Shown here in pieces: positions 1-7,355 of a DNA stretch of 23,486 nucleotides (position 1 is its first letter; each line of letters begins with the position of its first letter). Both the position numbers and the translations under genes were made by a program. Origin of the DNA: a virus; IMG/VR virus record IMGVR_UViG_3300027970_000146, positions 1 through 23,486 of that record; one strand, 5' to 3'. Under the pieces are notes generated by a model. The model was not told where the DNA came from. It worked only from the letters and a program-made list of their open reading frames with translations, and ran no database searches.

Positions 1-545
1 TTATTTTTTACTTTATTACCATTTCTTAAAACACCAATAGATGTTAGACCATATTTTTTCAAACACGTTTCATCTCTTTTTATTGTTGTTTCTGGTAATC
101 TACTAATGTTATCAACCCCATATAATTCTAAATTTGTTTCTATTCTTTTTAAACAAGCTTCAGCATTTGTACCCACCCAAAAACCATTTTCTTCAAAAAA
201 AATTTCTTGACCGATTTTTACTTTTTCTTTATGTTCTTCGGTTTCCCATAATTTTTTCATTCTTTCAGAATTCCATTTTTTCCATTCATCAGTATGTTCA
301 ATATTATAAACTGGGTTACCTTCTTTAATATAAAGTTCTTTTTGATGAGAATCTTTACAAACTCTAGAACAGTATTTTTTACCATTATCTATTTTATTTT
401 GTAACGTTTCAAACTCCTTGTTACATAGTAAACAATTAATTTTAACTCTATCAACTTTTAATTTTTTATAACCAATATGTTGACATTCTATCGAGCAATA
501 AACTTTATTTTTTGTTTCTTTTTGACAATTTTTACAGTTATTCAT
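1..545 (-). CDS. Zinc-finger homing-endonuclease-like protein, 3' end outside window (partial)
   Basis: The reading frame is open from the ATG at 545 down to base 1 with no stop, so at least 181 residues are visible and the C terminus lies outside. Two CxxC-CxxxC treble-clef-like fingers are clear: C4/C7 with C17/C21, and C38/C41 with C59/C63. A charged linker follows, then two repeats of the type TNLELYGVDNISR and TCLKKYGLTSIG. Such KYGV-type repeats are known from phage homing endonucleases that carry a VSR-like or EDxHD nuclease domain further on. No catalytic domain is visible here, so the nuclease assignment is inference from the N-terminal architecture. It sits just downstream of an Mre11-like gene with an abnormal C terminus, which fits a mobile endonuclease inserted into or next to that gene. 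Base composition is even more AT-rich than the neighbours. Confidence 0.6.
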   Translation of the reverse strand, partial: MNNCKNCQKETKNKVYCSIECQHIGYKKLKVDRVKINCLLCNKEFETLQNKIDNGKKYCSRVCKDSHQKELYIKEGNPVYNIEHTDEWKKWNSERMKKLWETEEHKEKVKIGQEIFFEENGFWVGTNAEACLKRIETNLELYGVDNISRLPETTIKRDETCLKKYGLTSIGVLRNGNKVKN

Positions 546-2597: not shown

Positions 2598-4385
2598 TTA
2601 TCCGTTTTTTATAATATTATAGTGATGCATCTCAATAAGCTGCTTAGCCTCTTTTTTAAGATACATTATTTGTATTTTTTGAAATGATTGTTTTTCTTTG
2701 TCCCAATACAAAACATAAATCTGTCGACACTTTCTTTTAGGGAACTCTAACTCGTACATATAAGCATATACACTTAACTGCAAAGTGTACACAGACCATT
2801 GACAAGCTTGAAGATGCTCAAAAGGTTTTAATAGCGTTTCATAACCATATGGGTTATAAAAATTAAAAACACGATTTGTATTATGTGTTACAATAAAACT
2901 ATGACCGAATAAAAATGTATGTTTTGGGCTCTTGACCTCAATACATATCGTTGGCTCTGATTCTACTTTATTAACTGATACAATATTTATATGATGACAA
3001 AAACTATTTCTAAATTCAATATTTATATCTTGATTTCTAACTAAAAATGGGTTTAAATAATGTGAGGTAAAACAAACATCGTAAGCAATAAATGTTTTAC
3101 CACTTAATTTTCGGTTAGTTGTTATGATTGTTGCTTTAAGCCCCAAGCTAGACACTAACATATTTATTGCATTGGCTTGCCATTTTCTGGTAGTTGACAT
3201 GACAAACCTATTTCTTTTTTTATTATAATACCCATCAGCATCCATAAGCCCTCTTAACACATCTAATCTTTGATTGAAAGATGAATTTAAAAAAACATCT
3301 GGTAATTGTTTATTTTTTAATACTCCAAGCTTATTCAATTCATGTGTCAAACCAAAAATAGTTCTAGTACTAGCCAAACCAGAACCACCACCAGAGATAT
3401 CCTCCCCAATTTTATAACCTCTTTTTTCTATTTCAGACCACACATTTTCATCCATGTTTGTTATTTTCCCATCAGCTGAATGTCCATCACCTAACCAAAC
3501 ACCAAAAACATATGGGTCTATTGGTAAATTAGCTATATCGATTTCTAATGGTCTAGCGCAAACAATTTTAGGTATTTTCCAAGAATATCTTTTTTTACCT
3601 TTTGGTAAAGTTTTCATGTAATCAAATAACTCTATTGTTGTCATAACAACATCTTTATATTTTTTTTCTCTTAAAAAAGAAACTAACCATCTATGTTCAA
3701 AATCAGAAACTATTTTTTCACCAGTATCAAAAGTAATTTCGTAACAATCTTTATTTTTAATGTCTGATATTGCTTTAATTTCTGTTTGACACCCATCACT
3801 ATCAAAAACTTTGTCTTCTAATGTCAATGTTCCCATTGTTTTCCACCCATTAGACGTAAATATTGGAGTGTTTAATGGTAACCCTTTATAATCAGCAACA
3901 TCAAAAAAGACATCATTTATATCAATAATCAAGTCTGAAGTACCAGCAAGTTCGTATTGTTCAGAAAACAATATTCTTTCTGGCCACATCGCATCGCCTT
4001 CTTCAATATTCAACGCATTGTAACCGTCAATAACTTTTTGTTCAAAGATACCCTCTTCATTGTCTTCTGGAAAATACCACTTATTCGCAAGTAAATAACG
4101 CTCAACAATATCATGAACCTTGCTACCGTATACGTTAGCTTCATCATTCAACAACTGCCAATAATCCAAAATTTGTTGTTGAGACAAACCAATATAGCGT
4201 TCTTGTTTAACGTTATCAGGTTGTCTTGTAATAGCCAACGAAACACCTTCAGCATCAAAATGTGGTTCAATTGATGACAAAGTAGTTGTAACTGATTTGT
4301 ATATCTTACCAGTCTCTCTATGATGATATTTATGTTGTATCGGTTCTAAGTAAATTATTGATTCCCACTTTTTAATTTTAGCCAT
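2598..4385 (-). CDS. RecB/Cas4-type PD-(D/E)XK nuclease interrupted by an in-frame intein
   Basis: The precursor is 595 aa; excising residues 168-502 leaves a nuclease of 260 aa. The extein has every motif of the RecB-type PD-(D/E)XK family: GSKVHDIVE near residues 87-95 (GxxxHxxxE), GTSDLII near 148-154 (metal-binding Asp), DYK at 165-167 joined after splicing to TNR, and LQLSVYAYMYE in the C-terminal part (QxxxY). Such enzymes are DNA exonucleases used in recombination or DNA processing. The intein lies exactly between Lys and Thr of DYK-TN, so unspliced protein should be inactive. I chose ATG 4385 over the in-frame ATG 4451 because a promoter-like element lies at 4391-4421 and the longer start would overlap the divergent acetyltransferase gene. 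The leader from this promoter would be nearly absent. The gene is divergent from the acetyltransferase gene, and the glycosyltransferase follows after 58 bases. Confidence 0.9.
   Translation of the reverse strand: MAKIKKWESIIYLEPIQHKYHHRETGKIYKSVTTTLSSIEPHFDAEGVSLAITRQPDNVKQERYIGLSQQQILDYWQLLNDEANVYGSKVHDIVERYLLANKWYFPEDNEEGIFEQKVIDGYNALNIEEGDAMWPERILFSEQYELAGTSDLIIDINDVFFDVADYKGLPLNTPIFTSNGWKTMGTLTLEDKVFDSDGCQTEIKAISDIKNKDCYEITFDTGEKIVSDFEHRWLVSFLREKKYKDVVMTTIELFDYMKTLPKGKKRYSWKIPKIVCARPLEIDIANLPIDPYVFGVWLGDGHSADGKITNMDENVWSEIEKRGYKIGEDISGGGSGLASTRTIFGLTHELNKLGVLKNKQLPDVFLNSSFNQRLDVLRGLMDADGYYNKKRNRFVMSTTRKWQANAINMLVSSLGLKATIITTNRKLSGKTFIAYDVCFTSHYLNPFLVRNQDINIEFRNSFCHHINIVSVNKVESEPTICIEVKSPKHTFLFGHSFIVTHNTNRVFNFYNPYGYETLLKPFEHLQACQWSVYTLQLSVYAYMYELEFPKRKCRQIYVLYWDKEKQSFQKIQIMYLKKEAKQLIEMHHYNIIKNG
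2880..3884 (-). mobile_element. Class 3-type intein with LAGLIDADG homing endonuclease
   Basis: A 335-residue intein in the nuclease gene. It starts GLPLNTPIFTSNGW, with Gly instead of the usual Cys or Ser at position 1, and ends FIVTHN, followed by Thr as the +1 residue. Block B contains FEHRWLV (His B:10, Trp B:12), block F contains TICIEV (Cys F:4), and block G has Thr just before the terminal His-Asn (G:5). This Trp-Cys-Thr set is the known signature of class 3 inteins, in which the block F Cys, not residue 1, makes the first attack. Between the splicing blocks are two dodecapeptide motifs, FGVWLGDG and LRGLMDADG, both with their catalytic Asp, so the homing endonuclease may be active. 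The boundaries are fixed because removal rejoins DYK to TNR, restoring a standard RecB-family motif. Confidence 0.9.
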
Positions 4386-6614: not shown

Positions 6615-7355
6615 TTATTTTTTATGCTTCCAGATAAAACCACCAGAAGTTTTAATTTTATTATTAGTACACTGTCTTATTGATTTAGCTGATAAGTTTA
6701 AAACATTTGCAGCTGTAGTTGCACTACCAAATTCCCGTATGAACTCACCGTTTTTGGTATATTGTTCAACTGGTTTAGCGTTTGGGTGTTTATCACCAGT
6801 AAATTGCCCTTTATGTGCCACACTTAGCTTTTTCTTTAGTTCGATTGCTTTTTTTTCACCATAAAAGTCACCATAAGTTTTACCATCTTTTTCAGATATA
6901 CGACCTTTACATGATTCACTTAATTTTTTTTTGTGTTCTTCACTTCTTGGTTCACCTGTATTCATCCAAGAAAGTGGTTTACCTTTTCTTATTTCAGACA
7001 TTTGTTTTATTTGTTCTGGTGTTTTTTTAACACCTAAAGAACTACCAGCAATTTTACATATATTATAACCTAAATCAACGTTATATGATTCGTACAAATC
7101 TAAATAATATTGTTCTCTAAGTAATAATGTTTCTTTTGTAAATTCTTCAATTATCTCTAATATTTCAAAAACAAATGAGTCTTCACCATATTTATTCCAC
7201 GCTCTTTGTAAATGTCTAGAATGGTGTTTATTTTGTCTTAAATCATTTAAATGATATGACCATCTTTTTTTAAAACCACATTTATTTCCAGTACTACCAA
7301 TATAAACTTTATTGTTAGCCAGATTAACTATTTTATAAACACCATTATTTTTCAT
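6615..7355 (-). CDS. GIY-YIG homing endonuclease with NUMOD repeats
   Basis: The 246-aa protein starts with a GIY-YIG nuclease domain: GVYKIVNL and KVYIGST supply the GIY/YIG halves, KKRWSYH gives the catalytic Arg, and LLREQYYLD the catalytic Glu, with GYN behind it. Three basic NUMOD3-type segments follow (around TPEQIKQMSEIRKGK, SEEHKKKLSESCKGR and ELKKKLSVAHKGQ), then a NUMOD1-like C-terminal DNA-binding module (EFGSATTAANVLNLSAKSI, ending GGFIWKHKK). This is the build of I-TevI/Seg-type homing endonucleases, which cut alleles lacking the element and drive its spread. Its start overlaps the end of the small upstream gene by 11 bases, suggesting coupled translation. The ruvC-like gene follows after 10 bases. 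Confidence 0.92.
   Translation of the reverse strand: MKNNGVYKIVNLANNKVYIGSTGNKCGFKKRWSYHLNDLRQNKHHSRHLQRAWNKYGEDSFVFEILEIIEEFTKETLLLREQYYLDLYESYNVDLGYNICKIAGSSLGVKKTPEQIKQMSEIRKGKPLSWMNTGEPRSEEHKKKLSESCKGRISEKDGKTYGDFYGEKKAIELKKKLSVAHKGQFTGDKHPNAKPVEQYTKNGEFIREFGSATTAANVLNLSAKSIRQCTNNKIKTSGGFIWKHKK

Follow-up and report, generated by a model that had tools for sequence, protein, structure and literature searches.

A class 3 intein with a LAGLIDADG homing endonuclease, proposed to splice and home, in a phage RecB/Cas4-like nuclease gene

The window, meaning the whole stretch of DNA analysed, is a 23,486-base virus record from IMG/VR. One frame on its minus strand, running from 4385 to 2598 and open throughout, encodes a precursor of 595 aa, or 260 aa with the intein left out. 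The features of this locus, with the basis for each, are as follows.

2598..4385, minus strand: intein-containing RecB/Cas4-like PD-(D/E)XK nuclease gene, predicted (open frame, phrog_298, PF12705)
3885..4385, minus strand: N-extein, 167 aa, C-terminal end AGTSDLIIDINDVFFDVADYK (translation, motif reading)
2880..3884, minus strand: class 3 intein, 335 aa, GLPLNT...FIVTHN (empty alleles, PDB alignment, tree, model)
3882..3884, minus strand: Gly1, intein residue 1, without a nucleophile (codon listing)
3687..3695, minus strand: block B, His B:10 (H64) and Trp B:12 (W66) (PDB alignment, 52-row alignment)
3234..3488, minus strand: LAGLIDADG motif span from Asp133 to Asp217 (motif 1 ...VWLGDG, motif 2 ...LMDADG), including block D Lys192 (PF14528, PF05204)
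2943..2945, minus strand: Cys F:4 (C314), the predicted branch-point nucleophile (PDB alignment, 52-row alignment)
2880..2888, minus strand: end of block G, Thr G:5 (T333), His G:6 (H334) and Asn G:7 (N335) (52-row alignment)
2598..2879, minus strand: C-extein, first residue Thr+1 (TNRVFNF...), with the QxxxY-type motif QLSVYAY (empty alleles)

The host protein is predicted to be a RecB/Cas4-like PD-(D/E)XK nuclease. In the N-extein, Asp151 is presumably motif II of that family, and Asp165-x-Lys167 motif III; the D...(D/E)xK core (D151, D165-x-K167) is regained once the intein is removed. The spliced extein matches PF12705 PDDEXK_1 at 22.1 bits, which barely exceeds the family cut-off of 22, and the N-extein alone matches phrog_298, an exonuclease family of PHROGs. 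A Pfam search with the unspliced 595-aa precursor gave no match to PF12705. To judge from where the insertion sits, the active site would be broken in the unspliced protein.

Standard family searches describe this gene poorly. The Pfam Intein_splicing family misses the window intein (12.1 bits against a cut-off of 35.8), and a Pfam family search of the record itself did not find it. PHROGs labels the precursor ‘terminase large subunit’, because it is the intein that drives the match. Phage annotations based on Pfam or PHROGs will misname intein-bearing nucleases of this type.

The ends of the intein are fixed by empty alleles. The intein occupies precursor residues 168-502, in frame (3884..2880), between the catalytic Lys of D-x-K and Thr+1, and the joined exteins read ...DVADYK^TNRVFNF... 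(the caret marks the insertion point here and below). The joined 260-aa extein matches 36 related viral contigs, at least 34 of which align without an intein; the closest intein-less allele is 96% identical across residues 1-260, with no gap. In the DNA of the intein-less contigs, DYK, DWK, DFK or DHK is followed immediately by TN. The ends can be taken as exact because these relatives read across the junction gaplessly, and the coordinates in the initial annotation are right to the base. Its proposal that removal joins DYK to TNR as a RecB-family motif III is borne out in the same contigs, which carry that sequence uninterrupted. Chance is ruled out as an account of an intein in this nuclease.

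Assignment of the intein to class 3 is well supported by its sequence. Residue 1, at an N-boundary set by the empty alleles, is Gly and offers neither Cys nor Ser as nucleophile; His B:10, Asn G:7 and a Thr at +1 are all present. In an alignment of 52 rows, H64, W66, C314, T333, H334 and N335 are invariant. The class is defined by the Cys124-His65-Thr143 triad and Trp67 of MchDnaB1 (PMC7664689). Class 3 DnaB inteins are the top PDB matches in a phmmer search (6rix, 2.3e-15; 6riy, 1.1e-14; 6bs8, 7.9e-14); in these alignments W66, C314 and T333 fall on the WCT triad of MchDnaB1, with EHRW, ICIEV and VTHN of the window intein opposite AHQW, RCVEV and PTHN. Gly at residue 1, Trp B:12, Cys F:4, Thr G:5 and Thr+1 had all been read from the letters of the sequence; all five are confirmed, and a misplacement of the Trp, Cys or Thr, which would have undone the reading, is contradicted by alignment to solved class 3 inteins (MchDnaB1, 6rix; MsmDnaB1, 6bs8).

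One might instead suppose a class 1 or class 2 intein with a degenerate first residue, the WCT residues being coincidental. Taken by itself, Gly1 could also come from a class 1 intein that has been damaged, and the class 1 gp41-1 intein has Thr G:5 and a similar block B in common with the window intein. This supposition is nevertheless scarcely credible: the intein has each of the WCT residues, none of which varies across its relatives, and class 3 structures far outscore gp41-1 with the 52-row profile (135-138 bits for class 3 PDB chains, 50 for native class 1 gp41-1, 63 for WCT-engineered gp41-1). Class 2 consists of KlbA orthologues with Ala1 and Ser G:6 (PMC4031507), whereas the window intein has His G:6. 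In a tree the window intein is nested among WCT inteins, the clustering with class 3 that the initial annotation looked for; as the only class 1 reference in that tree is itself a long branch, the class split rests on the PDB profile scores.

An AlphaFold2 model of the intein (pLDDT 93.7, pTM 0.91) is matched best over its whole length by PI-SceI-type inteins with an endonuclease (TMq 0.68-0.76); it also covers the DnaB inteins of class 3, with TMt 0.80-0.85. PI-SceI and other inteins combining HINT and LAGLIDADG domains have the same two-domain architecture, but are class 1, with a Cys1 nucleophile and a different host gene. MchDnaB1 and MsmDnaB1 (PDB 6rix, 6riy, 6bs8) share the HINT fold and the positions of the WCT/His triad residues; they differ in being mini-inteins without endonuclease, in the P-loop of DnaB, with Ala1 and Ser+1.

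The homing endonuclease is apparently intact. Two Pfam families score over their cut-offs (LAGLIDADG_3 PF14528, 28.8 bits; Hom_end PF05204, 24.1 bits), and the block D residue K192 is retained. Both dodecapeptides keep their catalytic aspartates, as first noted, and these (D133 and D217) are conserved in the 52-row alignment. In a shorter relative of 296 aa (L054:2001-2888), the equivalent of D217 is aligned as Asn, perhaps a decaying endonuclease.

The distribution of the intein among relatives is patchy. L006, L007 and L040, which lie closest to the window on the extein tree, are all empty, and the intein reappears in L041 and L042 amid other empty alleles; in two near relatives, L041/L043 and L042, it occupies the identical codon. 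L041 was found among the extein matches; L042, L044 and others were added by profile search. The pattern of gain and loss needs at least four changes on the extein tree, a rough lower bound because distant hosts form very long extein branches. Identities of intein and extein are discordant: 61% vs 81% between the window and L041, 68% vs 56% between L041 and L044, and 54% vs 28% between the window and L046. In distant phages, then, the inteins resemble each other more closely than their host proteins do. This discordance, together with the empty nearest exteins, fits horizontal movement of the intein. Raised identity flanking the insertion, as from co-conversion, was sought against L006 and not clearly seen (27/30 and 25/30 bases, vs 85% overall).

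At least three homing-type elements are found in the window. A free-standing GIY-YIG homing endonuclease with NUMOD1/NUMOD3 (6615-7355, minus strand) adjoins a RuvC-like gene, and an HNH-like ORF (3-545, minus strand) is cut off at the contig end.

Very probably, this phage gene for a RecB/Cas4-like nuclease holds a mobile intein of class 3, which carries a LAGLIDADG homing endonuclease and would both splice and home. In the proposed sequence of events, Cys F:4 would attack the Lys-Gly1 bond after translation, with His B:10 and Thr G:5 activating the Cys; the N-extein would then be transferred to Thr+1; Asn335 would cyclise, releasing the uninterrupted 260-aa nuclease; and cleavage of empty alleles by the endonuclease would let the intein spread through gene conversion. 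Sequence, ends, empty sites, class signature, fold and patchy distribution are observed; the steps of splicing, an inactive precursor and homing are inferred.

Class 3 inteins can decay: that of Arth_1007 is a pseudogene (PMC3196547). Splicing might likewise have been lost here, leaving a pseudogene or a functionless nuclease. Such decay is highly improbable in the window, given 335 intein codons that are still open, every splicing and endonuclease residue intact, and an extein still 96% identical to empty alleles; the Arth_1007 intein lacks His B:10 and Cys F:4, both of which the window intein has. A different proposal would add a function to the selfish role: the intein as a conditional switch, with the nuclease held inactive until Cys F:4 is freed to react by a redox signal or some other cue. 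The active site is split directly behind the catalytic lysine, and a related class 3 intein, in M. smegmatis DnaB, has been proposed as an oxidative stress sensor (PMC6195587). A switch is unlikely all the same: it would be dispensable, as most close relatives lack the intein, and an intact homing endonuclease explains persistence well enough.

The site itself is on record. The initial annotation suggested that the nuclease site might be a new insertion point; Kelley et al. (2016) described 40 inteins, treated as class 3, in RecB/Cas4-like exonucleases of C1 mycobacteriophages, all inserted at one point within the PD-(D/E)XK motif (PMC5050341). The junctions of ET08 gp202 read VELK^S...THN^TQN, and intein-less Alice gp201 and similar relatives read ELKTQN without a gap; the mycobacteriophage site is E-x-K^T, at a codon homologous to the insertion codon in the window. 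The insertion point is therefore already known, since ET08 gp202 and empty Alice gp201 share the (D/E)xK^T codon. ET08 gp202 is 99% identical to Catera gp206 (PMC3029335), which has served as a class 3 reference (PMC3196547). The C1 mycobacteriophage RecB inteins (ET08 gp202, Catera gp206; Kelley et al. 2016, PMC5050341; Pope et al. 2011, PMC3029335) have WCT, LAGLIDADG and the (D/E)xK^T site in common with the window intein; they are about 33% identical to it and begin with Ser or Ala, where the window has Gly. The rarity ascribed to class 3 at the outset holds only in a relative sense: by 2020 the total for class 3 in NCBI nr, according to a large survey, stood at 1701 inteins, with LAGLIDADG motifs in 82.5% (PMC7891396). 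The window intein is a clean further example; its class and its insertion point have both been described.

What may be new, modestly, is a large lineage of Gly1 inteins in many phages, separate from the published mycobacteriophage RecB inteins. With the intein as query, a close-relative protein search of viral contigs gave no match; an intein profile search returned at least 572 matching stretches. At N-junctions of the form [DE]xK, Gly is first in 50 of 56 rows, and at GK junctions Ala is first in 29 of 29, in a sample skewed to relatives of the window and with a few [DE]xK rows, L108 for example, that are not RecB. Within the set L042-L133, then, residue 1 tracks the insertion site, which could be phylogeny or a requirement of the junction. 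L108 (HEFK^A) is a terminase-like ATPase, and the LEGK junctions in bacterial genomes (...LEGK^SSLGRLG...) do not resemble RecB; neither was counted as a RecB site, because the fit to [DE]xK is by chance.

In the tree, a clade of 41 (99/95) unites the Gly1 rows with L081 and with L106, whose first residue is His; the window belongs to a starred group of 9 (98/91), inside a clade of 12 (100/100). Other phages also have Gly1 inteins at D-x-K^T/S/C: those of L042, L041, MT835539, Streptomyces phage Frankenweenie (gp79), Pseudomonas phage Rollin and Mycobacterium phage Zeeculate (gp67) share the site, Gly1, WCT and the clade (99/95) with the window, at 33-61% identity; most are unannotated as inteins, and their host genes are distant. 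The mycobacteriophage RecB inteins branch apart, near the TerL1-d-type intein of phage Eureka; Kelley et al. likewise found their own RecB set near the TerL1-d type (PMC5050341). An AU test rejected a single clade of all RecB-site inteins (p = 0.009): the window intein shares its codon with the mycobacteriophage RecB lineage, and common ancestry at the site was not found.

Several further Gly1 or related inteins turned up in the same searches. Two (L081:2001-2999, and L155 near 2001-2987) are Gly1 class 3 inteins in what appear, judging the extein by eye, to be RecT-type recombinases, with junctions that are again Lys^Thr (AKK^G...THN^T and IKK^G...THN^T). Another relative (L051:2001-2987) has in-frame stop codons in intein and C-extein, which may reflect stop recoding of the sort seen in certain crAss-like phages. 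Same-site Gly1 inteins also occur in bacterial bins, L166 and L138 (a Nocardioides MAG, VDYK^G, and an Alphaproteobacteria MAG, IDWK^G); these may be prophages or stray phage contigs.

Because the Gly1 lineage is phylogenetically separate from the mycobacteriophage RecB inteins, the same catalytic codon has probably been colonised at least twice. A fuller account has about an even chance of being right: that a second, widespread and undescribed Gly1 class 3 lineage independently targeted the Lys^Thr codon used by the mycobacteriophage lineage, that residue 1 goes with the site, being Gly for D-x-K and Ala for the P-loop GK, and that the shared Lys(-1)/Thr(+1) junction may permit jumps between ATPase and nuclease active sites. 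No description of the Gly1 lineage was found in the literature searched, which was for the most part open-access.

With these findings, the known range of class 3 inteins that interrupt a nuclease active site reaches far past the mycobacteriophages. The suggested repeated colonisation of one catalytic codon would favour the view that invariant active-site sequence is what inteins target.
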